Shown here: positions 11,361 through 31,310 of the stretch, in pieces
How the letters are laid out: every line of letters begins with the position of its first letter
How positions within the stretch are numbered: position 1 is the first letter of the stretch
Source: an uncultured Alphaproteobacteria bacterium
GTDB lineage: Bacteria > Pseudomonadota > Alphaproteobacteria > HIMB59
DNA: 34,904 nucleotides
Direction: 5' to 3'
Assembly (NCBI GenBank): GCA_902601865.1
Contig: CACKOX010000014.1
Span: 1-34,904, forward strand
The notes under the pieces: model-generated
Told to the model about the DNA's origin: nothing
What the model saw: only the letters and a program-made list of their open reading frames with translations
The model's database searches: none
Position numbers and translations under genes: made by a program

Positions 11361-11366
11361 TAATGA

Positions 11367-13999: not shown

Positions 14000-14032
14000 T
14001 TGAGAAAATGTAGTCTAAAGGAAATATCTATA

Positions 14033-15190
14033 TTACTTAAGAATTTTTTGTATTTCTTCTAGGGTGAAGTAATCAGCTTTTTGACATGATGTTTTGATAT
14101 CCTGTGTTGTCCTTGAGTCTGCTGCCTTCATAGTAGATTTAATAATGTCTAAAACATGAAGTGACAGTTCGCCATTACACCTATGATTTATGCCATTTTC
14201 TATGCAATAAAGCATCTCAGCTAGACCTACTCCACGGTAATTTGCATTTGTAGGGGACTCGTTAGCTCTTCCGCTTTGAGTAGTAATATTTATTCTCCCA
14301 AGTGGTAAATCATCAGTTTTATGCTCTTCCCATATTCCAGAGTCATCATTACTTGTCATAACTGACCCTCCAAACATGTTGGGGTCTGGGACTATCATTG
14401 AGCCCCTATCTCCGTAAAGCTCAATATGATTGCGCTGATGAGTAACCACATCAAATGAAAGAGTAATTTGAATTAAAGCTTGATTATGAAATTCTAAGTT
14501 AACTAGATAGCTTGTTGGACACTCGACTGAAAATTCTTGATCTTTTTTAGGGCCTATCCCAATTACTCTTTTTTCGAAAACTTTAGTGGATATTCCATGG
14601 ACACTTTTAGCTGGTCCCAAAAGATTTACTAATGCTGTAAGATAGTATGGTCCCATATCCATTACCGGTCCACCTTCATTATTAGCAAACCAAGGCTCTG
14701 GATTAGGATGATATGATTGGACGCCTGGATAAGCAAAGATGGCACTTCCAAGTCGAACATTTCCTATTTTATTTTGATTAATTAAATCTATCGATTTTTG
14801 TATACCTCCACCCAAAAATGTATCGGGAGCGTTTCCAATATATAAACCTTTAGATTTTGAAAGTGCTAAAAGTTCCTCACCCTCTGAGAAATTGACAGCC
14901 ATAGGTTTTTCACTGTAAACATGCTTTCTATTTTCTAAAGATTGTTTTGCAACTTCATAATGTGCTCTGGGTATTGTTAAATTTAAAATTACTTCAATCT
15001 CAGTGTCTTTTAATAGTTCATCTACTGAACAGGCTGTAATATCATAGGTGTCAGCACATTTTTCTGCATTTTCAGAATTAATATCTGCACATTTAGTAAT
15101 TTTAAAATTATTAAAGTAATCGTGACCTCGAAAATAAGTTTCGGATATATGACCACAACCTATTAATCCAACCTTGAAGACTTTGCTCAT
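14033..15190 (-). CDS. Gfo/Idh/MocA-family oxidoreductase
   Basis: VGLIGCGHISETYFRGHDYF, SEKPMAVNFSEGEELL, GGPVMDMGPYYLTALVNLLG. Confidence 0.88.
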   Translation of the reverse strand: MSKVFKVGLIGCGHISETYFRGHDYFNNFKITKCADINSENAEKCADTYDITACSVDELLKDTEIEVILNLTIPRAHYEVAKQSLENRKHVYSEKPMAVNFSEGEELLALSKSKGLYIGNAPDTFLGGGIQKSIDLINQNKIGNVRLGSAIFAYPGVQSYHPNPEPWFANNEGGPVMDMGPYYLTALVNLLGPAKSVHGISTKVFEKRVIGIGPKKDQEFSVECPTSYLVNLEFHNQALIQITLSFDVVTHQRNHIELYGDRGSMIVPDPNMFGGSVMTSNDDSGIWEEHKTDDLPLGRINITTQSGRANESPTNANYRGVGLAEMLYCIENGINHRCNGELSLHVLDIIKSTMKAADSRTTQDIKTSCQKADYFTLEEIQKILK

Positions 15191-15199
15191 TAAATATTT

Positions 15200-16657
15200 T
15201 TATTTATCTAAGCCGCACATATTGACGTATTTTATTTCAATAAAATCATCAATACCATATTTTGAACCTTCTCTTCCAAGGCCTGACTCTTTAATTCCAC
15301 CAAATGGAGCCTCCGCTTTTGAGGTTAAACCAGTATTTACACCAACCATTCCGTACTCAAGAGCTTCTGCAACTCTCCAAATTCTTCCTATATCTCTTGA
15401 ATAAAAATATGAAGCTAATCCATAAGGAGAGTTATTTGCTAAATCAATAACTTCTTTTTCGTCTTTAAATTTATATATAGGTGCAACAGGGCCAAAGGTT
15501 TCCTCAGTTGTAATTTTAGCTTGTGGGGTTACATCAGTTAAGATTGTGGGTTGATAAAAATTCAATCCCAGAGAGTGCCTTGCACCTCCTATTGCTACTT
15601 TTGCCCCATATGCAACAGCATCTTCTACATGCTCTTCAACTTTGCTTAAGGAATGTTCATCGATCATCGGACCAGAGGAATTTTCTTCATTGAGTCCATC
15701 TCCAACTTTCATTTTAGAGACCGCATCTACGAACTTTTTACAAAATTCCTCATGAACTTTTTCTTGAACATAAATACGATTTGCACAAACACAGGTTTGA
15801 CCTGTATTTCTAAATTTACTCTGCATAGCACCTGCAACTGCATCGTCTATATTAGCATCATCAAAAACTATAAAGGGAGCGTGGCCACCCAATTCCATTG
15901 AGACTTTTTTGACTGTGCCTGAGCATTTTTGTAACAAAATTTTTCCAATTTCAGTGGACCCGGTAAAAGAGAGTTTCCTGACAATTGGGTTAGAAGCTAA
16001 TTCATCTCCGATAGCCGATGCTTTTCCTGTAATAACATTCAAAGTGCCTTTAGGAAAGCCAGCCTCCTCAGCTAATACGGCAAGTGCTAATGCTGAAAAA
16101 GGAGTTTGACTTGCTGGTTTAATAACAACAGGACAACCGACAGCTAAAGCTGGTGCACATTTTCTTGTAATCATAGCATTTGGAAAATTCCAAGGAGTAA
16201 TCGATGCTACAACACCAACTGGCTGTTTGAGAACTACAATTCTTCGATCGGTCATGGGATCAGGAATTGTATCTCCATAAACTCTTTTAGCTTCCTCTGA
16301 GAACCACTCTACAAAGGATGCACCATAGCCAATTTCACCTCTAGATTCATTAATAGGTTTTCCTTGTTCAATAGTCATCATTTGAGCCAATTCTTCTTTG
16401 TTTTGGATCATAAGATCAAACCATTTTCGAAGAATATCTGAGCGCTGTCTTGCTGACTTTGCTCTCCACTCTGGCCAAGCTTCATTTGCAGCTTCTATGG
16501 CTCTTTTAGTCTCAGCTGTCTCACATTTAGGGACAGTTCCAATTTCTTCTAAAGTTGCAGGATTGTTAACTGAGATAGTTTCTCCGGAGTCAGATGTAAT
16601 CCATTCTCCATTAATATAACATTTATCTCTATAAAATTTTGAATCTGTAATCTTCAT
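15200..16657 (-). CDS. NAD(P)-dependent aldehyde dehydrogenase (succinate-semialdehyde dehydrogenase/GabD-like)
   Basis: ITPWNFPNAMITRKCAPALAVGCPVVIKPASQTP, MELGGHAPFIVFDDA, FRNTGQTCVCANRIYVQ. Confidence 0.93.
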   Translation of the reverse strand: MKITDSKFYRDKCYINGEWITSDSGETISVNNPATLEEIGTVPKCETAETKRAIEAANEAWPEWRAKSARQRSDILRKWFDLMIQNKEELAQMMTIEQGKPINESRGEIGYGASFVEWFSEEAKRVYGDTIPDPMTDRRIVVLKQPVGVVASITPWNFPNAMITRKCAPALAVGCPVVIKPASQTPFSALALAVLAEEAGFPKGTLNVITGKASAIGDELASNPIVRKLSFTGSTEIGKILLQKCSGTVKKVSMELGGHAPFIVFDDANIDDAVAGAMQSKFRNTGQTCVCANRIYVQEKVHEEFCKKFVDAVSKMKVGDGLNEENSSGPMIDEHSLSKVEEHVEDAVAYGAKVAIGGARHSLGLNFYQPTILTDVTPQAKITTEETFGPVAPIYKFKDEKEVIDLANNSPYGLASYFYSRDIGRIWRVAEALEYGMVGVNTGLTSKAEAPFGGIKESGLGREGSKYGIDDFIEIKYVNMCGLDK

Positions 16658-16682
16658 TTTTTTAAATATAGCATTTCATAGA

Positions 16683-16910
16683 TTATTCTACAGTAGCAAT
16701 TTTGCCGCCGACAGGTATTGTTTCCCCCTCAGGTGCCGTGATTTCAGTTAGTGTTCCATTTACTGTTGACGGAATTTCAGCAGCAGTCTTATCTGTTTCA
16801 ACCTCACATAAAATATCTCCTTCTTTAATTTCATCTCCAACATTTTTATGCCATTTTATGACTTTTCCTTCATCAACTGTCTCACCAAGTGAGGGCATTA
16901 TTATTTCCAT
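16683..16910 (-). CDS. Stand-alone lipoyl-domain protein (no E2 catalytic domain)
   Basis: MEIIMPSLGETVDEGKVIKWHKNVGDEIKEGDILCEVETDKTAAEIPSTVNGTLTEI...; canonical ETDK lipoylation motif; ORF ends after one domain. Confidence 0.9.
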   Translation of the reverse strand: MEIIMPSLGETVDEGKVIKWHKNVGDEIKEGDILCEVETDKTAAEIPSTVNGTLTEITAPEGETIPVGGKIATVE

Positions 16911-16912
16911 AG

Positions 16913-17896
16913 CTATTCTCCTTTTACTTTTTTTATAACTTCATTAATTATCAAATCTACTGAAGGAATAGTATTATCCTCTAGTATATCAGCACTAGGA
17001 AGAGGTACGTGAGGTGTTGTGACTCGAGTAACTGGTCCCTTTAAATTAGAGAAGCAATGCTCGGTTATGAGAGATGAAATCTCTGCACCCCATCCACATA
17101 ACCTTGGATTTTCCTCTACAGTGATGACTAATCCAGTTTCAATAATAGATCTTTTAATGGTCTGTAAATCTAGAGGAACCAAAGTTCTCAGATCTATAAC
17201 TTTTGCATTAATATTATGTTTTTCTTTTAAAATTTGTGCAGCTTTTTTTGAACGCTGTGCCATCAAAGCTAAGCCTATTATAGTAATATCTGCTCCTTCG
17301 TGAAGTATATTAGCCTGCCCTAATGGAATTGATAAATTTGTATTTTCTAATTGTTCTTTAGAAGCATAAAGAGATTTATGTTCATAAAATATCACCGGAT
17401 CAGGATCTTTAACTGATGCATCCATTAAGCCTAGGACATCACTAGCACAACTAGGAGCTACTACTTTTAAGCCTGGTATCATCATCGACCAATTTTCTAA
17501 ACTTTGAGAATGCTGAGCACCAAATTTTGACCCTCCACCATTTGCAGTTCTTATGACTAAAGGAATATTAATTTGACCATCGGACATATATCTAGTCTTA
17601 GCGATTTGATTGGCAATAATATCCCAGCATACTGCTAAGAAATCAGAAAACATAATTTCAGCTATTGGTCGCAAACCTGTCATTGCTGCTCCCATAGCTG
17701 CACCTAGAATAGCTTGCTCAGAAATGGGAGCATCCATAACTCTTTCTTTTCCAAATTCATCCAAAAGACCAACGGTGGCTTTAAAAACACCTCCCGCTGC
17801 TCCAACATCTTCACCAATAAAAAAAACCTTAGGGTCTTTTCTCATAGCTTGAGCAATAGCTAATGAAACACTCTCTCTATAAGTTAATTGTGCCAT
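16913..17896 (-). CDS. 2-oxo acid/acetoin dehydrogenase E1 component beta subunit (TPP-dependent)
   Basis: VFFIGEDVGAAGGVFKATVGL, APISEQAILGAAMGAAMTGLRPIAEIMFSDF, VIDLRTLVPLD. Confidence 0.92.
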   Translation of the reverse strand: MAQLTYRESVSLAIAQAMRKDPKVFFIGEDVGAAGGVFKATVGLLDEFGKERVMDAPISEQAILGAAMGAAMTGLRPIAEIMFSDFLAVCWDIIANQIAKTRYMSDGQINIPLVIRTANGGGSKFGAQHSQSLENWSMMIPGLKVVAPSCASDVLGLMDASVKDPDPVIFYEHKSLYASKEQLENTNLSIPLGQANILHEGADITIIGLALMAQRSKKAAQILKEKHNINAKVIDLRTLVPLDLQTIKRSIIETGLVITVEENPRLCGWGAEISSLITEHCFSNLKGPVTRVTTPHVPLPSADILEDNTIPSVDLIINEVIKKVKGE

Positions 17897-18888
17897 TTAT
17901 ATCCACCGTCTGCCCAAACATCTGTATAAATTTCTTTAATATCTGGGATCGGAGAATTCTTGGAAATATTTGTTGCTTCTTCTACTTGTTGTTGAATTTT
18001 ACTCTCTATTCCAGTTATTGTTTTTTCATCAATATTAAATTCTAAAAGTTTTTGTCTATAGTTTTTAATTGGGTCTTTGTTTTCCATCCAATCTTTTACC
18101 TCTTCATCTGGTCTGTATTTTCCTGGATCTGCTCTTGAATGTCCACTGTGTCTGTATGTTTTTGCCTCAATTAAACTAGGGCCATGACCGTATCTAGCTT
18201 TTTTTATCGCAGTTTGAGCTGTGCGATACATTTCATCGGCGTCATTACCATCTACAATAATTTTATCTAAGCTGTAGGCTGATGCCCTATCTGCTGCGGG
18301 ATGTTCTACGGCTGTAACTTCACTAATGGCAGTATATTCCATATACAAGTTATTCTCACATACAAAAACTATCGGTAAGTCCCATATTTTAGCCATATTT
18401 AAAGCTTCATGAAATGCTCCTATGTTAGTAGTGCCGTCGCCAAAAAAACAAACACTTACCTCTTTTGTCTTGTTGTACTTAGATGCTAACGCAGTCCCAT
18501 TTGCTATTGTAAGGTGAGCTCCAATAATAGCGTAAGATCCCATTACACCTTTTTCAACATCAGTAAGATGCATGGAACCACCTTTACCCTTCATCAAACC
18601 ACATTGTCGTCCCATTAATTCCCCTAGGACACCTTCGATAGAGGAACCTCTAGCTAAGGTATGGGCATGTCCTCTGTAAGTACAAAAAGTATAGTCGCCC
18701 TCTTGGAGAGCTATTCCAAATGCACCAGCTATAGCCTCCTGTCCTAGTGCTAAATGGCTTGTTCCTTTTATTAAATTTTGAAGAAATAAATCGTATGCTT
18801 TTTTTTCAACCGATCTTAATTTGAGCATCATTTCCCAGAGTTGAAGTCTCTTTGCTTCGCCTATGTCATCATTTAATTTATCTTCCAT
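17884..18888 (-). CDS. 2-oxo acid/acetoin dehydrogenase E1 component alpha subunit (TPP-dependent)
   Basis: YRGHAHTLARG, KGGSMHLTD, GDGTTNIGAFHEALNMAKIWDLPIVFVCENN, YRHSGHSRADPGKYR. Confidence 0.92.
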   Translation of the reverse strand: MEDKLNDDIGEAKRLQLWEMMLKLRSVEKKAYDLFLQNLIKGTSHLALGQEAIAGAFGIALQEGDYTFCTYRGHAHTLARGSSIEGVLGELMGRQCGLMKGKGGSMHLTDVEKGVMGSYAIIGAHLTIANGTALASKYNKTKEVSVCFFGDGTTNIGAFHEALNMAKIWDLPIVFVCENNLYMEYTAISEVTAVEHPAADRASAYSLDKIIVDGNDADEMYRTAQTAIKKARYGHGPSLIEAKTYRHSGHSRADPGKYRPDEEVKDWMENKDPIKNYRQKLLEFNIDEKTITGIESKIQQQVEEATNISKNSPIPDIKEIYTDVWADGGYKWHN

Positions 18889-20177
18889 TAATATTTATTG
18901 GCGATAGGCAAATCTTCGGCTGGAAATAATGATATTACTTGACAACCTTTGTCAGTAACTATTAATTCCTCTTCAATTCTGGCAGCTGAGTAACCATCTT
19001 TAGCTGGACAGTAAGTTTCAAGTGCAAAAACCATTCCCTCTTTGATCTCGTCTGGTGAGTCCATAGAAACTAAACGACTGATGATTGGTCTTTCATGGAT
19101 AGCTAACCCTAGTCCATGACCAAACTGTAAAGCAAATGCAGACATTTCATCAGCAAAACCAAACTCTTCAGCTTTAGGCCATACTGCAGCTATTTTGTCA
19201 GTTGACACTCCGGGTTTAACGAGCTCTATAGCTTTGTCTAACCATTCTCTGCACTGTTTATAAGCGTCATTTTGCGATTCTGATGCTCTTCCGATATTAA
19301 AAGTTCTGTAATAGCAGGTGCGATAGCCCATGTAGGATTGGAGGATATCAAAAAATGCCTGATCTCCTGGTCTAAATATTCTGTCTGTAAAATTATGAGG
19401 ATGAGGGTTGCACCTCTCACCTGAAATAGCATTAATGGCTTCGACATCGTCTGAGCCAAGTTCGTATAAAAGTTTGTTAGCATTTGCTACTATTTGAGCT
19501 TCACTTACACCAGGCTTCATAGTCTCATATATTTGATGGTATGTTGCATCAACCATAGATGCTGCTTGATTTAACAACATAAGTTCATCGTAAGATTTGA
19601 TTTCTCTAGCTTCGAGTAAAATTTGTTGGCCATCAATAATTTCCAAACCCTCCTCTTGAAGAGCAAACATCATTGCTGGCTCAACGAGGTCAACACCAAC
19701 TGGTTCATTAGCCAATCCTTTTTCATTTAACATTGATTTAATTTCTTTTGCTGCATTTTTCATCAAACCTGCATCTGGGTGGACGGTGCCTCTGAGTCCA
19801 ACCATTCCTGCCTTCCAGTTTTCTTTAGGAAGCCAAGGTGAGAAAATTTGATGGTGTTTCGCAGCTGAACCAAAATCCCAAAGAATAGGGTCGTGATCTT
19901 GTGCCAATAAAGAATATCTACAAATTTTGTCTCTTGACCATTCTCCAATAACTGTACTAGTGAGATAACGTATATTATTGTTATCAAAACAAAGTAAAGA
20001 ACCAGCCTTCGATTTTTTTAATGCCTGTCTTGCTCTGCCAAGCCTGTATTTATGAAGTCTTGGGAAATTAATTCTCTCTTCATAATCAACATTTGTTCTT
20101 CCATGAGAAGGGACTCTTCTATGCCAATTATAATTTGGATTAATATCTTCTGGTTTAATTATTGTAGGTTCAGTCAT
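18888..20177 (-). CDS. M24 (creatinase/Xaa-Pro aminopeptidase/DddP-fold) family protein with altered metal site
   Basis: RQALKKSKAGSLLCFDNNNIRYLTS; FFDILQSYMGYRTCYYRTFNIG; GHGLGLAIHERP; GMVFALETY; RIEEELIVTDKG. Confidence 0.85.
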   Translation of the reverse strand: MTEPTIIKPEDINPNYNWHRRVPSHGRTNVDYEERINFPRLHKYRLGRARQALKKSKAGSLLCFDNNNIRYLTSTVIGEWSRDKICRYSLLAQDHDPILWDFGSAAKHHQIFSPWLPKENWKAGMVGLRGTVHPDAGLMKNAAKEIKSMLNEKGLANEPVGVDLVEPAMMFALQEEGLEIIDGQQILLEAREIKSYDELMLLNQAASMVDATYHQIYETMKPGVSEAQIVANANKLLYELGSDDVEAINAISGERCNPHPHNFTDRIFRPGDQAFFDILQSYMGYRTCYYRTFNIGRASESQNDAYKQCREWLDKAIELVKPGVSTDKIAAVWPKAEEFGFADEMSAFALQFGHGLGLAIHERPIISRLVSMDSPDEIKEGMVFALETYCPAKDGYSAARIEEELIVTDKGCQVISLFPAEDLPIANKY

Positions 20178-20981
20178 TTATTGAATAACCATCCCTCCAT
20201 CAATCATAAGTATTTGGCCTGTCATATAATCGGAGTCTTTTGATGCTAAAAATGAAGCTGTTCCGACAATATCTTCTGGATATGAATATCGTTTCATTAA
20301 AATCATATTTTCAGCTATAGAGTCCATAGACTCACCATGTTTTTTAAACTTACCCATTGCAACTAACTCTTTGTCTAATTGCTCCCACATCTCTGTTCTA
20401 ACAACACCTGGTCCATATCCATTAACATTTATACCATACTCAGCCAATCCCTTAGCTCCACCTTTTATTAAACCTGCAACTGCATGTTTACTTGCACCAT
20501 AAATGACAACATCATCAAAAGTTTCTCGCGATAAAATTGATGCAACATGCAAAATTTTATATGGCTCATTTTGCTTACCTTGTTTAATCATTTGTCTTGC
20601 TTGTTCTTGCATACCAAGCCAGGCACCACGGACATTTATATCAAATATAAAATCATAATTTTCTTCAGTTACATCCATAAACCAAAGAGGTTTATTTACA
20701 CCAGCATTATTTAAAGAAACATTTAGACTACCAAAGGCCTCGACTGTTGCCTTAACTGCTGCAACATGATCCTCTCTTTTTCTCACATCTAATTTACAAG
20801 AGATTGCCTCACCACCAGCTGACCTAATTCTATCCTCTACTTCTTTACAACCATCAATATTTACATCGGTGATGCAAACCTTTGCACCTTGTGCGCAATA
20901 GTCCTCAGCGATAGCTGCTCCCATTCCTTGAGCTGCACCAGTAATTAGAACGTTTTTACCTTTAAGTCTTTCCTTGTCCAT
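20178..20981 (-). CDS. Short-chain dehydrogenase/reductase (SDR)
   Basis: VLITGAAQGMGAAIAEDY, LNNAGVNKP, YGASKHAVAGLIKG, GQILMIDGGMVI. Confidence 0.93.
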   Translation of the reverse strand: MDKERLKGKNVLITGAAQGMGAAIAEDYCAQGAKVCITDVNIDGCKEVEDRIRSAGGEAISCKLDVRKREDHVAAVKATVEAFGSLNVSLNNAGVNKPLWFMDVTEENYDFIFDINVRGAWLGMQEQARQMIKQGKQNEPYKILHVASILSRETFDDVVIYGASKHAVAGLIKGGAKGLAEYGINVNGYGPGVVRTEMWEQLDKELVAMGKFKKHGESMDSIAENMILMKRYSYPEDIVGTASFLASKDSDYMTGQILMIDGGMVIQ

Positions 20982-21041: not shown

Positions 21042-21058
21042 ATATTCAAAATGAATAT
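21042..21058. promoter_or_regulatory. Palindromic operator site 1: ATATTCA-AAA-TGAATAT
   Basis: Perfect 7-bp arms; 61 nt upstream of SDR start; shares 15 nt identically with site 3. Confidence 0.7.
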
Positions 21059-22092
21059 TATTTACCTAGAACAGTTCTCTTTTTTTCTAGGAGTGTAGTT
21101 TTACGTTCATCAATCGTAGCCAGTAAACTCTTTCTCGACTGTCTAGAGTCAAACACTCTGGACATAGTTTGAAAAACTATAACGATTACCAAAAGAACAG
21201 ATGTAAATAATTGTACAAAATGAACTTGTAAAGCATAAAAGACAAGACCTGTATTTAAAAAATTTACAGTTAATGCTCCTATGGCGGCCCCTAGAACTCC
21301 CCCCTTTCCTCCTAATATACTCACACCTCCAACAAAAGCTGCAACTGTTCCTGCTAATAATAAGTACTGTAATCCTAAGCCTTGTGCAGTACCAGACTTT
21401 AGTCCTATTACAGTTCCAGCAAAACCTGCACAAAATCCTGAAAGGGCAAAGGCTATAACCATTGGTCGCCTTAAAGGTATGCCTGCAGTTAGAGCCTCTT
21501 TTCTAGCACCACCTATGGCATAAATTTCTCTTCCATATTTTGTGTATCGCATAAATATACCCACACATATAAATATGAATATAACTGTAAGGCTTGCTGG
21601 AGAGAAATACATCAAAACTTTAGTAGTAATAAAATCAGGAACTCTGAAATCAGTAAGCATTACTGTTTTTTCTTCTGCTATTAATAAAGCCACTCCTCTT
21701 AAAAGCATTAATGTACCAACAGTAATTACAATTGCTCTTATTCTAATAAATGCAATTACAAAACCTTGTATGGCCCCAATAAGAGTTGAGACAGATAAGC
21801 CAATCAACATTGCAAAGGGTGCTCCTAAAGGGTCAGTCAACTTAACTACAATTACTGCGCATAAAGCTGCATTAGAACCAATAGAAAGATCTATTTCTCC
21901 GGCTATGATACAGATGGTAAGAGCTAATCCGACAAGCCCTAGAACAGCAAATCTTTCGAGTATTGCAAAAGAGATATTATGACTGAAAAAAATTTCTATA
22001 TTTAATGAAAAAAATACATAAACACAAAACGATAAAAGAATAGCAAATGATAAATCTACATCTTTGGTGACTTTTTTGAAAAAATTTTCCAT
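21058..22092 (-). CDS. CUT2-type sugar ABC transporter permease (RbsC-like)
   Basis: ITCIIAGEIDLSIGSNAALCAVI-type segment, IVITVGTLMLLRGVALLIAE, YAIGGARKEALTAGIPLRR, GGVSILGGKGGVLGAAIGAL. Confidence 0.9.
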   Translation of the reverse strand: MENFFKKVTKDVDLSFAILLSFCVYVFFSLNIEIFFSHNISFAILERFAVLGLVGLALTICIIAGEIDLSIGSNAALCAVIVVKLTDPLGAPFAMLIGLSVSTLIGAIQGFVIAFIRIRAIVITVGTLMLLRGVALLIAEEKTVMLTDFRVPDFITTKVLMYFSPASLTVIFIFICVGIFMRYTKYGREIYAIGGARKEALTAGIPLRRPMVIAFALSGFCAGFAGTVIGLKSGTAQGLGLQYLLLAGTVAAFVGGVSILGGKGGVLGAAIGALTVNFLNTGLVFYALQVHFVQLFTSVLLVIVIVFQTMSRVFDSRQSRKSLLATIDERKTTLLEKKRTVLGK

Positions 22093-23132
22093 TATTCTTG
22101 AGCCCTACTTCCTTTAGCAAATAGTCCAAAAACTATAATGCTAAATACAATCATTAGGCCCACTCCGACTATTCTAGGACCACTATTAAACCCTTGTAAT
22201 ACCATCATATTATCAACCATAGCAATAAATATAGCCCCTAAGCTAGTTCTGAGAGTAGAACCATAACCACCCATAATTGAATTTCCACCTACCATCACAG
22301 TGGCAATGACAAGAATGGTCATATCACCTGATGAACCAAATTCTGCAGAAAAATAGTTAGACTGAGCACTATCCATTTGAGCAACAAAAGCAACAGCAAC
22401 AAATGCACAGCATACTGAACAAATAGTGAAAACAATTATAGCCATTGAAAAATTCTCATGACCTGTTGCCCTTCCTGCTGCTTTGTTGGCACCAACTAAA
22501 TAAACTTTTCTGCCAAAATTTGTGTGTCTAAGGACTAATTCTGCTGCAATTGCTATCAAAATAAATGCCAATGTTATACTTGGGAGACCTAAAAAAGAGC
22601 CTGTTCCAAGCCATTCTGCATCATGTGGTCTTTTAAAATTAATAACAAGATTATCACTCCACCAAGCTCCTATTCCATATAAAATACCAGCCCCTCCAAG
22701 AGTAACAACTATGGGGTTACCTCCCATGCCAACAAAATACCCCTGGATTACTCCACTCAAAACTCCAACAGACAGAGCGGCTAAAAGGGATACTAAAAAG
22801 TTTCCAACTAAATCTGGCGAACCAAATCCAGTTGCCATTCCCATGGCAAAAGTAACACCGCAAATCGATGCTGTTTCTTTTAAGGATAATAAGAAAAAGT
22901 TACCTGATAGAGTAACAAATGTTAGTCCAATAGCCATGATCCCATATAATGCAGCATCTCTAATAATTGCTTTGAAATTTGTAATTGTTAGATAATTATC
23001 TGTAAAAAAAATTCCATAAACAAACATCACTGCAAAAAGTGAAAGCAGAATTGCTAATAAGGTTCTATCTTTATAAAATTGTAAAAATTTCGAAGAAAAA
23101 GGGCTTTTGTTGTCCTGCGTAATTGTTGTCAT
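22092..23132 (-). CDS. CUT2-type sugar ABC transporter permease (RbsC-like)
   Basis: AIGLTFVTLSGNFFLLSL, GGNPIVVTLGGAGILYGIG, VYLVGANKAAGRATGH, VGGNSIMGGYGSTLRTSLGA. Confidence 0.9.
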   Translation of the reverse strand: MTTITQDNKSPFSSKFLQFYKDRTLLAILLSLFAVMFVYGIFFTDNYLTITNFKAIIRDAALYGIMAIGLTFVTLSGNFFLLSLKETASICGVTFAMGMATGFGSPDLVGNFLVSLLAALSVGVLSGVIQGYFVGMGGNPIVVTLGGAGILYGIGAWWSDNLVINFKRPHDAEWLGTGSFLGLPSITLAFILIAIAAELVLRHTNFGRKVYLVGANKAAGRATGHENFSMAIIVFTICSVCCAFVAVAFVAQMDSAQSNYFSAEFGSSGDMTILVIATVMVGGNSIMGGYGSTLRTSLGAIFIAMVDNMMVLQGFNSGPRIVGVGLMIVFSIIVFGLFAKGSRAQE

Positions 23133-24637
23133 AGATTAGTCTCATTAAATGGATCAGTTATTTCTTTCAGTATAACCGGTGTTTTGATCTGTTCTAATCT
23201 ATGTTCGTCTATCATCATTCCTCTATAAAATGTTATAACTCTATCAGGAAGATAAGTGATCTCTTGAATATCTGTAGAGGCGAATATAATAGTTATTCCT
23301 CTTGCAGCTAGTTCTCTCATTCTTTGATAAATTTCTGATTTAGCTCCGACATCGACACCTCTAGTTGGCTCATTTACTAGAAGAACGTCTGGCTTAATTG
23401 ATAGCCATTTTCCCAAAGCAACTTTTTGCTGATTTCCTCCACTCAGCAGACCAGACTCGTCGTAAACTCTCTTTACGTCGATAAGGAATTCTTGAGCGAG
23501 GTTTTTTGCATAACTATCTTCCGTGCTCCCAAAATTAAATCCAAATTTTGAAATAGTATCAAGTGCAGGTGAGGTTAAATTTTCGAATATCGGTCTTCCC
23601 AAGAAAAGGCCATCTTTTTTACGATCCGAAGAACAGTAAGCAATCTTTTTCTTAATTGCTTGACTAGGTGATTTAGGAAGAAAAGTCTCTCCATTCAATG
23701 TAAGAGAGCCAGATCGTGATTTTAAAGCACCTGCAATTGAAGCTAATACCTCTCCAGCACCACTTCCAAGTTGCCCAGATAGACCAAGTATTTCTCCTTG
23801 ATAAGCTGAGAAACTCACTGGCTCTAATACTCCATCAGGCCATAAGTCTTTAACTTCAATTTTTGATTCCAAGCTAATATGATCAGCTCGGGAAGGGAAC
23901 ATGTTTGCTAACTCTCTTCCCAACATTATTTCAACTAATTTATTTACATCGATGTCTTTTGTTTCTTGCACACCTTGAGAGACACCGTCCCTCAAAATTG
24001 TAATTCTTTTTGTAATTTTAAAAATTTCATCTAGCCTATGACTGACATAAATAATTGACTTCCCATTTTTTGCAAGGCGCTGAACCATTTCTAAAATTCT
24101 ACGACTTTCCAGCTCTCCAAGGGCTGCTGTTGGTTCATCTAATATTAAAATTTTAGCTTCTCTGGATATTAACCTAGCTACTTCAACTAGATGTTGTTCA
24201 CCTACTGATAGTAAATTTATTCTTGTTGAGGGATCAATATCTGTGAGTCCTACTTCATCTAAATAAGGTCGAGCCATTTTTGATAATGTGTTTAAGGTGG
24301 CAAATTTTTTAACTTTTGCACCTGTCAGAAAAATATTTTCAGCTACTGACATATTTGGGATTAAACTCAATTCTTGTTGAGCTATAGCTATACCAGACTC
24401 TTCCGCCTTTGAGGGGGTATCGAATTTTACTTCTTTACCATTTAGCTGATAGCTTCCTTTGAAACCAGGGTCGAAACCGCTAATGATCTTAACTAATGTA
24501 GATTTTCCAGCACCATTCTCACCAACCAATCCCATAATTTCTCCTTCATTGATTTCAAAATTTGCCTCTTTTAAGGCTTGAATAGCACCAAAAGTGCGAG
24601 AAACGTTTGTAATCTTGAGTACTGGATCAGAAGCCAT
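23129..24637 (-). CDS. CUT2-type sugar ABC transporter, tandem ATP-binding domains (RbsA/MglA-like)
   Basis: Two ABC domains: GENGAGKSTLVK, ILILDEPTAALGELE and LSGGNQQKVALGKWLS, VLLVNEPTRGVDVGAK. Confidence 0.93.
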   Translation of the reverse strand: MASDPVLKITNVSRTFGAIQALKEANFEINEGEIMGLVGENGAGKSTLVKIISGFDPGFKGSYQLNGKEVKFDTPSKAEESGIAIAQQELSLIPNMSVAENIFLTGAKVKKFATLNTLSKMARPYLDEVGLTDIDPSTRINLLSVGEQHLVEVARLISREAKILILDEPTAALGELESRRILEMVQRLAKNGKSIIYVSHRLDEIFKITKRITILRDGVSQGVQETKDIDVNKLVEIMLGRELANMFPSRADHISLESKIEVKDLWPDGVLEPVSFSAYQGEILGLSGQLGSGAGEVLASIAGALKSRSGSLTLNGETFLPKSPSQAIKKKIAYCSSDRKKDGLFLGRPIFENLTSPALDTISKFGFNFGSTEDSYAKNLAQEFLIDVKRVYDESGLLSGGNQQKVALGKWLSIKPDVLLVNEPTRGVDVGAKSEIYQRMRELAARGITIIFASTDIQEITYLPDRVITFYRGMMIDEHRLEQIKTPVILKEITDPFNETNL

Positions 24638-24671
24638 CGTCTTAATTATACATACTTATAAATTGAATAAC

Positions 24672-24700
24672 TACACACAGGGAAAAATTCCCTGTGTGTA
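24672..24700. repeat. Perfect stem-loop between SBP and ATPase genes (13-bp stem TACACACAGGGAA, 3-nt loop)
   Basis: tacacacagggaa-aaa-ttccctgtgtgta read directly; no U-tract after it on the minus strand. Confidence 0.75.
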
Positions 24701-24724
24701 AAATTTAAATATTAGAAAACTAAC

Positions 24725-25768
24725 TTAGTCCCAAGCACCTGAGCATAGCTCATCGATGCCATAAAGGTTTCCATCAAAACCCCTGAGTGCAGTAAAGTCC
24801 ATAGTTGCACCAGTTACTGATGGGTTAGGTGTAAAGTTAATGTAGTTTGCAAGTTCACCATTTTCCATGTACTCCTGCACAAGCTTGATAGCTAATTGAC
24901 CCTCGTGAAGAGGTGACTGAAGAGTTGTACCGAATTGCTTACCGTCAGTAATCATCTGTTTGTCACCATTACAAACTGTACCAACAGTTATAACAGCGTC
25001 ACCATCGACACTTCCGTTTTTACCAGTACCTGCATACCAGTCAACGTTATAGCCAGCTTCTTCAAGAGCTTTAATACCTCCGGTTAAGATAGCATCATCC
25101 ATTCCATAGACGAAGTGGATACCTTGGTCTTTAACTTTAGCAATAAGCTTTGCGGCACCTTTGTAACCATTGGCCTGACCAAATCCTTCACCAATATCAC
25201 CAATTAGATTTAAATCAGTTCCTGCAATAGCTTGTTTGAAAGCATTGATTGATAAACCATAACCACCGTAAGAGTGAGGGTATGATAATGCTATAACATT
25301 AAATCCATCTCCACCTGCAGCTTGTTTCATCTTCATGGCTTTAACCATCATCTCACCTGCATTATATGCACGTAAGCTATCATCAGGTCCAGCATACCCG
25401 AAGATAAAAGCCTTATCTTGCTCATTAGGTAATTGGTTAATTTTTAAAACTGGAACTCCTGTCTTTGCTAATTTTCTTAGAGATCCTAAACCAGCAACTG
25501 CATCAGGTGGCCACCAGATAAATACATCTGGAAGTGCGCCGCTTGACAAATATTGCTCGACTTGTTGATTTTGCTCAGCTTGATTATAATTATTTTCAAA
25601 AACTGTAATATCATAACCATACTGAGCTGCAGTAGCTTTAATTCCTTTAACAAATGCTCCTACATAAGCTTCTGAAGATGCCGCATTAAAAGATACGATC
25701 TCAACAGCTTTTGCAGAACCAAATGAAAAGCACATTAAAACAGCTAATACTCTGACTAGGTTTTTCAT
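24725..25768 (-). CDS. CUT2-type sugar ABC transporter periplasmic substrate-binding protein
   Basis: Signal peptide MKNLVRVLAVLMCFSFGSAKA; AYVGAFVKGIKATAAQYGYDITVFENNYNQAEQNQQVEQYLSSG; strong SD AGGAGG before ATG. Confidence 0.9.
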   Translation of the reverse strand: MKNLVRVLAVLMCFSFGSAKAVEIVSFNAASSEAYVGAFVKGIKATAAQYGYDITVFENNYNQAEQNQQVEQYLSSGALPDVFIWWPPDAVAGLGSLRKLAKTGVPVLKINQLPNEQDKAFIFGYAGPDDSLRAYNAGEMMVKAMKMKQAAGGDGFNVIALSYPHSYGGYGLSINAFKQAIAGTDLNLIGDIGEGFGQANGYKGAAKLIAKVKDQGIHFVYGMDDAILTGGIKALEEAGYNVDWYAGTGKNGSVDGDAVITVGTVCNGDKQMITDGKQFGTTLQSPLHEGQLAIKLVQEYMENGELANYINFTPNPSVTGATMDFTALRGFDGNLYGIDELCSGAWD

Positions 25769-25830: not shown

Positions 25831-25853
25831 AATATATTCAATTTGAATATATT
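25831..25853. promoter_or_regulatory. Palindromic operator site 2: AATATATTCAA-T-TTGAATATATT (23 bp) in the SBP/regulator divergent promoter region
   Basis: Perfect 11-bp arms around a single central base; core TTCAwwwTGAA shared with sites 1 and 3. Confidence 0.8.
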
Positions 25854-25889: not shown

Positions 25890-27575
25890 ATGAATAGAAA
25901 TGAAATCACTACTCTTTTGAACTTTGTAGATAAGACAAGATTATTATTTAATAAGAAAATTACAAATAACACTGTGGACTCTGAGTGGAGAATATTTTCA
26001 TATGTTATAAAAAATCACCTCGATAATAAAATTATAACTACAACAAGTATCATTCAATCATCAGGTCTTCCTTTTGCTACTGGCCTTAGGAGAGTTAATA
26101 AATTAATCAAAGAAAAAAAATTAATACAAAGAGTCAAAACAAAATCAGGTAAGTCTTTTTCAATTCATCCAAGCTCAGAATTAATTGAGGAATTTACTTT
26201 GTACTTATCATCTATCAAAAATGAAATAGCTTCTAATTTAGGTTTTGGGGAATTAAATGACTCTTATTATTTTGGGATGTCCTTATCTGCTGGTAATATA
26301 ATTCCTTCGCCTAAAGTTTTTATTAATTCCTCAAACCGATTTAAGAAAATTTCTTTACTATCAAATGATAATCCAACATTTAAAGTTATAAATAGTAATT
26401 TAGATTTTTTTGAGTATATCTTAGATTGTAAAATTGAGCATATAATTGAAAATGATCTTAATAAACTTTTAAATTTAATTGTAAAAAACTCAGAAAAAAA
26501 GACAAAGTCTAAATTTGATATCGTTGGGTTTAATTTGCCTTGGGTTGGCCAGCTAGCAAAATTAAATACATTACTGCCATTAGATAAATATATCGACTCA
26601 AGTGGTTTTAACCTCAGGGACTTTCATTTTTCAGCTATTAGATCTAGCTCTTACAACAATAAATTATTTGGTGTTCCAATTGAAACTATTCCTGACCTAC
26701 TATTTTATAGAAAAGATATTTTTGAAAAATATGGTTTAAGCCCTCCTAAAAAATTTGATGAATTATTAGCAGCTTGCGAAATTTTAAAAAAATCAAATGA
26801 GGTAGAAAGCCCGATATCTTGGCCTGCTCGTAAAGGTCAACCTCTAGCAACTAGTTTCATATTAATGATGGCTAATTTTGGAAAACCTTATGTTAATCTT
26901 CGCCATATAGGCCAAAACACATACGATTTAGACACTCAGAAAATAGTAATTAAAACAAATTTCCTATCTGAGGCTGCATTTAAAGCAGCAAAAGTTTTAA
27001 AATCTTTAATACCATACTCTCCCACAGATTTGTCCCTGCAATCAAATGACGAGTGTGTTGAATATTATAGCAAAGGAAAATCAGCAATGGTGATGAATTG
27101 GAGCAGTAGAGCTCATCAATTTGAATTAAATAAAAATTCTCCTGCTTTTAAAAATAGCGGTTACTTACCTAGACCTGCTGGTGTAGAACCTTTTCAAGTA
27201 TCTCCAATAGGAGGATTTTCTTTAGGCATACCTTCAAACATACTCGATGATAAAATCCCTTTTGTAATGAAGACTATCCAAAGCCTAGTTTCACCAGAAA
27301 TTATTAAATATTACATCGAACATGGTAGTCTTTCTTCTCCAGTGTTTAGTGTAGCTAATGATCCTGAAGTTAGAACATTAAGTCCTATTTTTAATGAATT
27401 AGACAAAATGGAAAGAGATGAACGATTTGTAGAATGGGCTAGATACCCACTTCCATCTTACTCAAAAATTATTGAGCAAGTTGGTAATGAGCTTTTTGAG
27501 TATTTATTTTTGAACAAAGATCTTCAGACTACTTTAGAACAATGTCAAAAAAGTGCCTCTAGATTATTAGTTTGA
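25890..27575 (+). CDS. Cytosolic fusion regulator: N-terminal winged HTH (MarR-like) + C-terminal extracellular solute-binding protein family 1 (MalE-type) domain
   Basis: wHTH-like SEWRIFSYVIKNHLDNKIITTTSIIQSSGLPFATGLRRVNKLIKEKKLIQRVKTKSGKSFSIHP; SBP_1-like LLPLDKYID...YNNKLFGVPIETIPDLLFYRKDIFEKYGLSPPKKFDELLAACEIL...YYSKGKSAMVMNW; no signal peptide. ATG 25890 preferred over TTG 25818, because the palindrome lies inside the extended start. Confidence 0.82.
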   Translation: MNRNEITTLLNFVDKTRLLFNKKITNNTVDSEWRIFSYVIKNHLDNKIITTTSIIQSSGLPFATGLRRVNKLIKEKKLIQRVKTKSGKSFSIHPSSELIEEFTLYLSSIKNEIASNLGFGELNDSYYFGMSLSAGNIIPSPKVFINSSNRFKKISLLSNDNPTFKVINSNLDFFEYILDCKIEHIIENDLNKLLNLIVKNSEKKTKSKFDIVGFNLPWVGQLAKLNTLLPLDKYIDSSGFNLRDFHFSAIRSSSYNNKLFGVPIETIPDLLFYRKDIFEKYGLSPPKKFDELLAACEILKKSNEVESPISWPARKGQPLATSFILMMANFGKPYVNLRHIGQNTYDLDTQKIVIKTNFLSEAAFKAAKVLKSLIPYSPTDLSLQSNDECVEYYSKGKSAMVMNWSSRAHQFELNKNSPAFKNSGYLPRPAGVEPFQVSPIGGFSLGIPSNILDDKIPFVMKTIQSLVSPEIIKYYIEHGSLSSPVFSVANDPEVRTLSPIFNELDKMERDERFVEWARYPLPSYSKIIEQVGNELFEYLFLNKDLQTTLEQCQKSASRLLV

Positions 27576-28397
27576 TTAATCTAAAGAAATTTTTCCCTCA
27601 GGAGTTGGAGGAGAGAAAGGATAACCGCCCCAAACAGATTGATCAAAATTAACTACTGAGCCTGTCATCATGCCAGAATCATCAGATGCTAAAAATGTTA
27701 CTGCCTTTGCTACTTCATTAGGGTCTAGAAGCCTCTCAAAAGGTTGTTCCTTTGCAGCATCTTTTAACCAATCTTCTGGAGCACCATGATATTTAGTTTG
27801 AATTTCATGCTCCCCATCTGATGCCATCCATCCAATATTTAATTGATTAACTCTTATCTTATTATTAAGTAATGCAAACGCCGTGTTTCTCGTTAAAGTT
27901 GCCAAGGCCCCTTTCGAGGTGCAATATGCAGATATAAATGGTTGTCCAGTTAGAGCAGACACAGACCCTATGTTGATAATAGAACCATGAATTCCTTGAT
28001 CTATCATAATTTTGACAGTTTCTTGTATGAGGAAGAAAGGCCCTTTGACATTAGTTCCTATCATTTTATCGAATAATTCTTCAGATGTGTTGACAATATT
28101 ACCTCGATCAGTGATACCTGCTGCATTTACAAGAACATCTATTTTTCCAAAATTTTTTTTTGCAACTGTTACAGCGTTACGACACTCTTGAACATTAGGT
28201 AAGTCTGTCTTAACGAAAATTACTTTGCACCCAGTTTCCTCTTGAATCTTTTTTGCTACCTCTTTTCCTTTTTCCTCTTTTCTTCCAATAGTAATAATAC
28301 CCTCTGCACCATTTTCAGCAAAATTTTTAGCAATTGCTGCCCCCAAACCCTGTGTTCCTCCTGTAACGAGTGCAAACTTTCCTTTAATGCTATTCAT
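27576..28397 (-). CDS. Short-chain dehydrogenase/reductase (SDR)
   Basis: ALVTGGTQGLGAAIAKNFAENG, LVNAAGITDRG, SAYCTSKGALATLTRN. Confidence 0.92.
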   Translation of the reverse strand: MNSIKGKFALVTGGTQGLGAAIAKNFAENGAEGIITIGRKEEKGKEVAKKIQEETGCKVIFVKTDLPNVQECRNAVTVAKKNFGKIDVLVNAAGITDRGNIVNTSEELFDKMIGTNVKGPFFLIQETVKIMIDQGIHGSIINIGSVSALTGQPFISAYCTSKGALATLTRNTAFALLNNKIRVNQLNIGWMASDGEHEIQTKYHGAPEDWLKDAAKEQPFERLLDPNEVAKAVTFLASDDSGMMTGSVVNFDQSVWGGYPFSPPTPEGKISLD

Positions 28398-29301
28398 CTA
28401 TGTAATCCTCTATCTGATATCCATACATACTTAAGCACTCTACTAACTCTTTGTTTCCAATTTTTGCATATTCAAAAGGATTTGCTTTTGCTGGATCTTG
28501 TTCTGCCTCCACAATGAACCATCCCTCGTAATTATTTTTGGATAAAGTTTCAACAACTTCTTTAAAATTAATATTCCCATCACCAGGTACTGTAAAAGCC
28601 CCCTCAAGGACAAAATCTAAAAAACTTTGTTTTGATCGATCTAAATTATTTACTATTTTTGAGCGAATGTCTTTTGCATGAAAGTGATTTATTCTTTTTG
28701 CATGTTTGTTTATAACCCCTAAAGAGTCTCCTCCAGCAAAGGTCATGTGACCTGTATCAAATAAAATTTTTACTGCCTCACCTGTATGGTTCATCAGACT
28801 ATCTAGTTCTTGTTCAGTCTCAATCGCCGTACCCATATGGTGATGAAATGAAATTGGTACTCCAAAATCTGCACAAAATTCTGCAAATAATGTTAATTTT
28901 CTTCCATACTCTTTAAAGTCTTCACTATGTATTTTTCTTTTTGTATTCAGGGGAGCGTGTCTGACATTTTGAATGGTTCCTGAGGTTTCTCCGTAAGCCA
29001 AAACTGCTGCTCCTAAATCTCTAAAAAGTGTTAATTGTTGAAGAACTCTATCTTTTTCATTTTCTAAATCATTATCAAGAACAGTGCCTGAGTACCACCC
29101 AGAGGCTAGGTATAGTTTGTGACTTTTCAAAATAGGCCCTAATTTTTCAGGAGTTTTAGGGAATTTACCCCCTGTTTCTACACCAGTAAATCCTGCTAGT
29201 TTTGATTCACTAAGGCATGTATCTAAAGATGTTTCCCCTCCCAACTCAGGTAAATCGTCATTAGACCATGCTATAGGTGCTATCCCCAATTTTGCTTTCA
29301 T
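28390..29301 (-). CDS. iolE: myo-inosose-2 dehydratase (IolE) family TIM-barrel protein
   Basis: LGIAPIAWSNDDLPELGGETSLDTCLSESKLAGFTGVETGGKFP is the characteristic IolE N-terminus; HHHMGTAIET, LFDTGHMTFAGGD, HFHAKDIR. Confidence 0.9.
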   Translation of the reverse strand: MKAKLGIAPIAWSNDDLPELGGETSLDTCLSESKLAGFTGVETGGKFPKTPEKLGPILKSHKLYLASGWYSGTVLDNDLENEKDRVLQQLTLFRDLGAAVLAYGETSGTIQNVRHAPLNTKRKIHSEDFKEYGRKLTLFAEFCADFGVPISFHHHMGTAIETEQELDSLMNHTGEAVKILFDTGHMTFAGGDSLGVINKHAKRINHFHAKDIRSKIVNNLDRSKQSFLDFVLEGAFTVPGDGNINFKEVVETLSKNNYEGWFIVEAEQDPAKANPFEYAKIGNKELVECLSMYGYQIEDYIDE

Positions 29302-29358: not shown

Positions 29359-29373
29359 ATATTCAAAATGAAT
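29359..29373. promoter_or_regulatory. Palindromic operator site 3: ATATTCAAAATGAAT in the iolE/iolG divergent region
   Basis: 15 nt identical to site 1; perfect ATTCA-AAA-TGAAT core. Confidence 0.65.
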
Positions 29374-29417
29374 TATTTTTTATTTTTAATATTAAAATAG
29401 TACTATATGTCTGAGGT

Positions 29418-30422
29418 ATGAAAAAAGTAAGAATTGCAGTGATTGGGTGTGGTCGTATAGGTCAAATGCATGCCAAAAATATTCAGCTTCATGAAAAGAC
29501 AACTTTAGCTTGTGTTTTTGATCCAAACGATCAATTTGCAAAAAAAGTTTCAAATGATTTAAGTGTTCCAGCTGTAGAAAAAGTTGATGAAGTTTTTAGC
29601 GATAGTGGTATTGATGCAATTCTTATATCCTCTCCAACAAATACCCATATTGATTTCATAGAGAAATCAGTTGCTGCAAAAAAACCTGTTCTTTGTGAGA
29701 AGCCAATTGACTTAGATATTATTAAAGTTAATGAGTGCTCTGAAAGGCTTAAAGGAAATAATATTCCAATTCAATTGGGATTTAATAGAAGATTTGATCC
29801 CGGTCATCAAGCTGCGAAGCAATCTTTAATAGATGGGGAGATAGGTGAACTTCATCAATGTTTGATTACATCAAGAGACCCTGGTTTACCTAGTTGGGAT
29901 TATTTAAAAGTATCAGGTGGTCAATTTAGAGATATGACTATTCATGATTTTGATTTAGCTCGCTTTATGCTAGGAGAAGAACCTAAAAAAATATTTGCGA
30001 TATCTAATGCTTTGATAAATCCAAGAATAAAGTCTGAATTAGATGATAGTGATACTCTGATGATTATCATGGAGACTGCTTCAGGAAAACAGTGTCATAT
30101 TAACAACTCTAGATCGGCCACATATGGTTATGATCAAAGAGTAGAGCTATTTGGAAGTAAGGGAATGGTTGTATCTGAAAACAGAAAGCCCCATGAGCTT
30201 AAAAAGTATAATATGGAATTCGTTGATAAACGAGAGCCGTATCTAAATTTTTTTATAGAGAGATATCAAGAGGCTTATATGAATTCTATTACATCATTTG
30301 TCGAGGCTATTATTGAAAAAAAGCAAGTATCTGTTGGATTTGAAGATGGAAGGAGAGCCCTTCTTTTAGCTGAGGCTGCATATAAATCTGTCAAAAGTGG
30401 GAGGTTTGAAAAAATTGATTAA
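29418..30422 (+). CDS. iolG: Inositol 2-dehydrogenase (IolG) family, Gfo/Idh/MocA
   Basis: VIGCGRIGQMHAKNI, CEKPIDLD, IQLGFNRRFDPGHQAAKQSL, VSGGQFRDMTIHDFDLARFMLGEEP. Confidence 0.88.
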   Translation: MKKVRIAVIGCGRIGQMHAKNIQLHEKTTLACVFDPNDQFAKKVSNDLSVPAVEKVDEVFSDSGIDAILISSPTNTHIDFIEKSVAAKKPVLCEKPIDLDIIKVNECSERLKGNNIPIQLGFNRRFDPGHQAAKQSLIDGEIGELHQCLITSRDPGLPSWDYLKVSGGQFRDMTIHDFDLARFMLGEEPKKIFAISNALINPRIKSELDDSDTLMIIMETASGKQCHINNSRSATYGYDQRVELFGSKGMVVSENRKPHELKKYNMEFVDKREPYLNFFIERYQEAYMNSITSFVEAIIEKKQVSVGFEDGRRALLLAEAAYKSVKSGRFEKID

Positions 30423-30432
30423 TATTATGCAT

Positions 30433-30453
30433 TTATCTATGACTAATAGATAA
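30433..30453. repeat. Inverted repeat TTATCTAT-GACTA-ATAGATAA between iolG and HpcH/HpaI genes
   Basis: Perfect 8-bp arms, T-rich downstream; possible weak terminator or operator. Confidence 0.4.
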
Positions 30454-30488
30454 TTGTTATAATTAATTTTTTAAATATTTTTAGATAG

Positions 30489-31310
30489 ATGATTGAAAAT
30501 AAAGTAAAAGAAAAATGGAAAAGTAAAAAAGTAGTTCTTAATAGTTTCTTATCAATACCAAATACCTTTACTGCCGAAATCATGTCAGAGCAAGGATACG
30601 ATGCTTTAACTATTGACTACCAACATGGGATGATTGGCTTTAATGACTTATTTACAATGTTGCAGAGTATTCGACATAGTGGTGTGACTCCAATTTGTAG
30701 AGTCTCTGGTTTAGATCATGCTGTTATATCTAAAGTTATGGATGCAGGTGCTTTGGGAGTTATATGCCCTATGATTAATACACGTCAACAAGCAGAGCAA
30801 CTAGTTCAAGATTGTAAATATCCTCCTGTTGGTATTAGAAGTTTTGGCCCAACTAGGGCAAATTTTTCTGTGAGCTCAAACTATTTTTATGAGGCAAATG
30901 AAAGTACTTTTTGTTTAGCTATGATTGAAACACAACAGGCATTTGATAATCTTGATGAAATAGCATCGACACCTGGCCTAGATGGACTTTATATAGGAAC
31001 AGCAGATTTAACAATTGGTCTCAATCAAGGGAAGCTTGTTCCAGGTTTTGATCGCAAGGAACCTGAAATGATTGATGCAAAAAAGAAAATTTTAGCTGCA
31101 GCTCATAAATATGGAAAAGTTGCTTGTCTTCATTGTGGCACTCCTGAGTATGCTGCTCAAGCTTCTGAGTGGGGTTTTGATTTTGTAACGATTACTAATG
31201 ATGTTCGACTTCTTGCTGGAGCTGCTGGAGCTCACGTGAAAAAATTTAAAGAGTTAACAAACCAAGAACACGATGAAACTGACAAAGATACTAATCCAAG
31301 CTCTTATTAG
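30489..31310 (+). CDS. HpcH/HpaI-family aldolase (2-keto-3-deoxy sugar acid aldolase type)
   Basis: MSEQGYDALTIDYQHGMIGF, VMDAGALGVICPMINTRQQAEQLV, GIRSFGPTRA, MIETQQAFDNLDEIASTPGLDGLYIGTADL. Confidence 0.93.
   Translation: MIENKVKEKWKSKKVVLNSFLSIPNTFTAEIMSEQGYDALTIDYQHGMIGFNDLFTMLQSIRHSGVTPICRVSGLDHAVISKVMDAGALGVICPMINTRQQAEQLVQDCKYPPVGIRSFGPTRANFSVSSNYFYEANESTFCLAMIETQQAFDNLDEIASTPGLDGLYIGTADLTIGLNQGKLVPGFDRKEPEMIDAKKKILAAAHKYGKVACLHCGTPEYAAQASEWGFDFVTITNDVRLLAGAAGAHVKKFKELTNQEHDETDKDTNPSSY

Follow-up and report, generated by a model that had tools for sequence, protein, structure and literature searches.

A MarR-like winged helix-turn-helix joined to a MalE-type solute-binding domain: an apparently undescribed family of predicted cytosolic regulators

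The window, i.e., the whole 34,904-nucleotide stretch of alphaproteobacterial DNA analyzed here, carries an inositol-type gene island that includes a fused regulator gene at 25890–27575 on the plus strand. This gene is an open ORF of 561 amino acids, and the evidence from Pfam, AlphaFold2, Foldseek and full-length relatives together identifies its product as a winged helix-turn-helix (wHTH) followed by an SBP_bac_1-type solute-binding domain. Divergent from it, on the minus strand, is a CUT2 sugar transporter operon (21058–25768), a predicted target of the regulator, with genes for a solute-binding protein (SBP; 24725–25768), an ATPase (23129–24637) and two permeases (22092–23132 and 21058–22092). 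The transporter SBP belongs to Peripla_BP_4 and is therefore of the CUT2 type, as the first-pass annotation had proposed for this adjacent system. A second predicted target on the minus strand is the SDR-to-SSADH operon (15200–20981), which encodes an SDR (20178–20981), an M24 peptidase-like protein (18888–20177), E1 alpha (17884–18888) and E1 beta (16913–17896) proteins, and an SSADH-type dehydrogenase (15200–16657). On Roseobacter plasmids, genes of these types again adjoin this regulator and are arranged in a similar order. Farther downstream on this strand are cyclitol genes (10407–15190): Gfo/Idh (14033–15190), iolC (13037–13999), an iolB-like isomerase (12194–13036), a class II aldolase (11367–12197) and an epimerase-like gene, read by eye (10407–11360). 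On the other side of the regulator, an SDR gene (27576–28397) and iolE (28390–29301) occupy the minus strand (27576–29301), and iolG (29418–30422) and an HpcH/HpaI-type aldolase gene (30489–31310) occupy the plus strand (29418–31310). The products of iolE (TIGR04379), iolG (TIGR04380) and iolC exceed the curated NCBIfam cutoffs; iolD was found elsewhere in the genome, outside the island.

The full-length AlphaFold2 model of the protein, built on 25 aligned sequences, has a mean pLDDT of 81 and a pTM of 0.70 and consists of two bodies, so that structure prediction places both a wHTH and an SBP fold in the same chain. The first body is a MarR-like wHTH spanning residues 1–116 (25890–26237, plus strand; AlphaFold2, Foldseek and profile searches), with helices at residues 3–20, 30–44, 51–58 and 62–75, wing strands at 79–83 and 90–94, and a final helix at 96–116. 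From the family alignment and the model, the predicted recognition helix comprises residues 62–74, FATGLRRVNKLIK (26073–26111, plus strand), in which Thr64 and Arg67 are almost or completely invariant in the family. A low-confidence stretch of the model, residues 117–152 (26238–26345, plus strand), forms the linker. The second body, residues 153–561 (26346–27572, plus strand), is a complete MalE/SBP_bac_1-type domain according to Pfam, solved-structure matches, AlphaFold2 and Foldseek. The first-pass annotation had assigned a wHTH to the first ~85 residues and an SBP_1 domain to the remaining ~470; both folds stand, but the boundaries move, because the C-terminal helix of the wHTH extends to about residue 116 and the SBP domain begins only after the linker, near residue 153.

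In Pfam, residues 210–427 score 67 bits against SBP_bac_1 (3.8e-18; cutoff 26), and the protein also matches SBP_bac_8 at 3.3e-15. Its top solved-structure matches are the trehalose/maltose-binding protein (TMBP; PDB entry 1eu8) and MalE3 (6dtq), and the family profile matches 5iai (Arad_9887) at 3.9e-59. The same three structures head the Foldseek results for the SBP model (6dtq, 1.1e-25; 5iai, 2.0e-25; 1eu8, 5.6e-25), with TM scores of 0.85–0.89 normalized by target length. These SBP_bac_1-type proteins thus share the fold of the sensor domain and provide its best sequence matches; they are exported parts of transporters, whereas the fused protein is predicted to be cytosolic and is joined to a wHTH. 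Twenty diverse members share a complete SBP core, whose conserved positions include Pro217-Trp218, Asp244-Phe245, Trp311 and Gly441-Gly442, and the residues invariant among these aligned members include Pro217, Trp218, Pro263, Arg274, Asp276, Gly441 and Gly442.

For the wHTH, Pfam finds nothing significant before residue 200, and no wHTH model in Pfam or NCBIfam exceeds its cutoff in the 561-residue protein. This includes MarR and MarR_2, for which the best family member reaches 21.2 bits against a cutoff of 27; among the family members scanned, the HTH_IclR cutoff is passed only by that from Paraburkholderia. However, a wHTH profile built from 19 family members matches TubR (3e-4) and MarR-type proteins (1.5e-3). 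When residues 1–121 were modeled separately, AlphaFold2 gave a pLDDT of 85, a pTM of 0.79 and the order H-H-H-H(recognition)-E-E(wing)-H of a wHTH. The first 13 PDB matches to this model in Foldseek are all MarR-family regulators, including DNA-bound MepR, with probabilities of 0.99–1.00, modest E values of 8e-3 to 5e-2 and TM scores of about 0.5–0.6. An end-to-end alignment of 20 diverse members over both domains shows His43, Arg67 and Pro94 of the wHTH to be invariant.

The same wHTH profile also matches the C-terminus of response regulators in other Alphaproteobacteria (L129–L133, from genomes G201, G423, G328, G500 and G189), which have a receiver domain, a long linker and a wHTH of this type at the C-terminus; a Pfam scan of the L129 protein returned no output domain over its cutoff. 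Judged by these sequences, the wHTH appears to act as a module that would take its input from a receiver domain in the response regulators and from an SBP domain in the fused family. Stand-alone wHTH relatives of 144–146 residues also exist. One, of 144 residues, is encoded in the same genome as the window (G000:C5:17818-18249; L002 1495–1929) and stops about where the SBP domain would start, and a second lies at L117 6400–6840. They could be either remnants of a fused gene or functional single-domain forms.

Relatives of the fused protein are widespread: scans of genomes and plasmids, of the kind that the first-pass annotation had suggested for marine Alphaproteobacteria, recovered a conserved family in several orders. 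A scan of GTDB genomes yielded 11 full-length relatives with identities of 61–99%. The full-length fusion is present in 24 of the 52 genomes of the window's genus, and in three further genomes the copy is split at contig ends. The sister family has one fusion, which runs off the end of its contig (G006), and class-wide profile searches added fusions in G278 (two), G381, G315 and G503. Plasmids carry it in Skermanella, Marinovum, Phaeobacter, Pacificitalea, Tritonibacter, Shinella, Agrobacterium, Rhizobium, Sinorhizobium, Loktanella and Aminobacter, and plasmid records also place it outside the Alphaproteobacteria, in Paraburkholderia. The occurrence of the same fusion in so many independent genomes and plasmids rules out a one-off event or an assembly chimera. 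With the SBP domain alone as the query, all of the 30 plasmid matches listed correspond to the records and positions of fused genes. One genome (G151) has two paralogous fused regulators, ~42% identical (L115 7676–9370 and 15261–16961), which flank a single CUT2 operon, with a copy of the operator described below beside each.

We constructed a tree of 46 SBP domains, i.e., 27 from fused proteins, 17 from exported SBPs and two from Lachnospiraceae LacI+SBP_1 proteins. The 27 fused domains form one clade (SH-aLRT 99), apart from both the exported SBPs and the LacI+SBP_1 fusions. A single origin of the fusion is therefore favoured on these sequences, but not proven, because few exported SBPs are included. 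The grouping of the sensor domain in a clade made solely of fused proteins agrees with the earlier view that it was not copied from the local SBP. Derivation from that protein was ruled out separately: the window SBP belongs to Peripla_BP_4, and the SBP_1-type relatives in the same genome are ~24% identical.

Between the regulator gene and the divergent CUT2 SBP gene lies a palindrome, AATATATTCAATTTGAATATATT (25831–25853), with the core TATTCA-N3-TGAATA at 25835–25849, which we designate predicted operator 1. The palindrome reported previously at this position proved exact, with 11-bp arms and a 1-bp gap, and none of 60 shuffles was as good. Predicted operator 2, TATTCAAAATGAATA (21043–21057), is located between the permease and SDR genes, just upstream of a −35/−10-like pair on the minus strand, and predicted operator 3, TATTCAAAATGAATT (29360–29374), with one mismatch, is located in the iolE/iolG divergent promoter. 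The predicted consensus is TATYCA-N3-TGRATA. Allowing up to two mismatches, the core TATTCAAWTTGAATA occurs five times in the window against 0.65 expected, with three occurrences in island promoters and two within a distant gene. The exact sequence TATTCA-N3-TGAATA occurs only three times in the 1.22-Mb assembly, twice in the island, and the reversed-pattern control does not occur at all.

Conservation points to the same sites. For the comparison of the palindrome across loci, rows L086–L108 were left out, as not all of them are oriented. Operator 1 is kept in 11 of 11 close loci, in the regulator's own promoter; operators 1 and 2 are the longest invariant blocks in their intergenic alignments; and operator 3 is conserved in L006 and L008, but the corresponding position in L015/G119 has a weak site or none. 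The third exact site in the assembly (G000:C42:1832-1846) lies between genes that we named by eye as DAHP synthase-like and nicotinate phosphoribosyltransferase (NAPRT)-like; it has no evident connection to the island and counts against the link between operator and regulator. An operator-like palindrome occupies the same place in a second genome (G111:C1:1408730-1408744).

In distant loci of the Roseobacter type, TATCCA-N3-TGGATA-like sites occur in the same intergenic region between regulator and transporter. Matches to TATYCANNNTGRATA within one mismatch were found in the 350 bp upstream in 7 of 14 distant loci (0.022 expected), and ATCCA-N3-TGGAT has five intergenic and no coding matches in nine annotated plasmid loci, in which the 29 other arm permutations have no intergenic match. 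Both counts are partly circular, since the widening of the motif from T to Y drew on Marinovum and Tritonibacter. We therefore examined nine loci that had not been used, a comparison free of this circularity: three have exact sites (Shinella, Rhizobium jaguaris and R. rhizoryzae) against 0.01 expected, Pacificitalea and strain SC52 have weaker sites in the correct position, and four have no site. Over all loci, no clear site was seen in several from Rhizobiaceae or in either of the two from Paraburkholderia. Residue 62 of the regulator is mostly Phe in the genus of the window (LPFAT), with the operator half-site ATTCA, and Tyr in many other members (PYAT), with the half-site ATCCA; this pairing may reflect a change of specificity.

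The operator is tied to the regulator through position and co-occurrence. It could instead belong to a different regulator of the island, with the fused protein acting on other targets, and both the purely positional nature of the link and the lack of a nearby site in some fused relatives would fit such an arrangement. We regard it as unlikely, because the motif accompanies the fused gene across genera whose pathways differ (Roseobacters, Rhizobium, Aminobacter) and is present in the regulator's own promoter throughout the close loci. That the fusion and the DNA word travel together is the best available evidence for the preferred reading, in which the fused protein is predicted to be a DNA-binding regulator of conserved specificity.

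The ligand can be approached only from the fold and the neighborhood. Because of the inositol genes in the island and a Paraburkholderia copy whose neighbor is annotated as inositol 2-dehydrogenase, a cyclitol/polyol or an early breakdown product, e.g., myo-inositol or inosose, is the most likely ligand. In six other loci (L149, L152, L154, L196, L199 and L200), the regulator adjoins YciI, Gfo/Idh and SDR genes, and mostly also intradiol dioxygenase and maleylacetate reductase genes. These neighborhoods suggest a carbohydrate or cyclitol route ending in ring cleavage, and given the dioxygenase and reductase genes the ligand probably varies between members. It had been considered odd that a sensor of the class normally paired with CUT1 transporters lies beside a CUT2 system. 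This holds locally, but the oddity is weakened by relatives in Agrobacterium and Aminobacter that adjoin CUT1-type operons. Ligand binding is itself a prediction, and binding folds can lose their ligand, so the regulator might be real and its SBP domain serve as a dimerization or protein-interaction platform, or sense a protein partner. Such a role seems quite improbable to us: the diverse members retain a complete, conserved SBP core, the closest solved relatives of the domain bind carbohydrates, and it remains with carbohydrate loci.

Nearly all annotated members of the family are named "extracellular solute-binding protein". Among 19-residue segments that begin within the first 40 residues, hydropathy peaks at 0.27 for the fused protein, compared with 1.84 for the exported CUT2 SBP encoded next to it, which upholds the proposed absence of a signal peptide by a simple hydropathy measure rather than a trained predictor. 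An exported CUT1 SBP with an unusual N-terminal domain would suit the database name and the SBP_bac_1 match, but is hardly credible for a protein that lacks a hydrophobic signal segment, begins with a MarR-like wHTH, adjoins CUT2-type transporters with their own Peripla_BP_4 SBP, and is encoded beside a conserved palindrome.

The fused protein is very probably a cytosolic one-component regulator with a wHTH that recognizes TATYCA-N3-TGRATA and a MalE-type sensor for a cyclitol/polyol, controlling the inositol-type island at three promoters. The core of this proposal, already made in the first-pass annotation, is supported by the folds, the absence of a signal peptide, family conservation and the operators at three island promoters. 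In the mechanism that we envisage, the N-terminal wHTHs would bind the palindrome as a dimer, as the symmetry of the operator, with its 6-bp arms, implies. The C-terminal domain would act in the cytosol and bind either a small carbohydrate that the cell has imported or a product of the first steps of its breakdown, and closure on this ligand would shift the spacing of the paired wHTHs. This switch would act on the promoters of the regulator/CUT2 transporter pair, the SDR-to-SSADH operon and iolE/iolG. Operators just upstream of the −35 element are typical of activators. The −35/−10-like pair of the SDR operon is immediately downstream of its operator, and the CUT2 promoter has a conserved GATAAT-like element ~30 bp downstream of its own; promoter scans returned only weak matches, that of the SDR operon included. 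As two operators lie just upstream of −35/−10-like pairs, the sequences mildly favor activation. More broadly, we consider it likely that the protein represents a widespread, so far undescribed family in which a MarR-like wHTH is combined with a cytosolic MalE-type flytrap, with one conserved operator across alphaproteobacterial orders, and which possibly acts as an activator. This regulator family, for which an operator and regulon are now defined as predictions, is concealed under a misleading name, almost every annotated record describing an exported SBP. The analysis also points to control of inositol-type carbon use in small-genome marine bacteria.

MalE is the textbook periplasmic flytrap, and the LacI and LysR families reuse periplasmic-binding-protein folds as cytosolic effector domains. 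Both families differ from the fused protein in the class of HTH and of binding protein, and the 561-residue protein has no Pfam match to either family, with neither the LacI HTH (PF00356) nor Peripla_BP_1/3 present. MarR regulators share the wHTH fold and a short palindromic operator with it. However, they are small (~140 residues) with a ligand pocket at the dimer interface, whereas the fused protein has 561 residues and a separate SBP domain, i.e., ~410 additional sensor-domain residues, and does not pass the Pfam MarR models. With exported CUT1 SBPs it shares the SBP_bac_1 fold but, by the hydropathy measure, not the signal peptide. No description of the present architecture, or of a characterized family that has it, was found in the open literature; a subscription journal could hold one.

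The nearest known design is that of E. coli SgrR and Vibrio cholerae DsvR, cytosolic proteins of ~550 residues with an N-terminal wHTH and a C-terminal SBP_bac_5 domain that are linked to sugar metabolism (PMC13060122). The fused protein has the same layout of a wHTH and a solute-binding domain without a signal peptide, but SgrR combines SgrR_N (PF12793) with SBP_bac_5 (PF00496), whereas the fused family combines a MarR-like wHTH with SBP_bac_1/8. SgrR_N has no Pfam match in the 561-residue protein, one Paraburkholderia member reaches 12.7 bits against a cutoff of 24, and hhalign to SgrR_N gives a probability of 1.6; homology to SgrR was rejected for both domains (Pfam, hhalign). The Lachnospiraceae proteins (L019 6945–9218 and L020 6918–9167) likewise carry SBP_bac_1 on a regulator that starts with an HTH and has no signal peptide, but theirs is a LacI HTH followed by an extra LacI-type periplasmic domain (Peripla_BP_1) and then SBP_bac_1, so that a single regulator combines two distinct binding-protein folds. 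As their SBP domain falls in a separate clade, they represent an independent fusion.

The earlier statement that the protein lies outside the classical regulator families holds in that it matches neither LacI nor SgrR_N, but its design has precedents in SgrR/DsvR and the Lachnospiraceae LacI fusions. In principle, the architecture is less exotic than the first-pass annotation supposed, and the support for it is stronger, through the operator and the distribution. If the proposal is true, the MalE version as a cytosolic switch would show the same fold driving DNA binding rather than transport and would offer a modular sugar/polyol biosensor. Alongside SgrR/DsvR and the LacI fusions, we place a real, conserved and apparently undescribed regulator family with a sensor of the periplasmic-binding-protein type.
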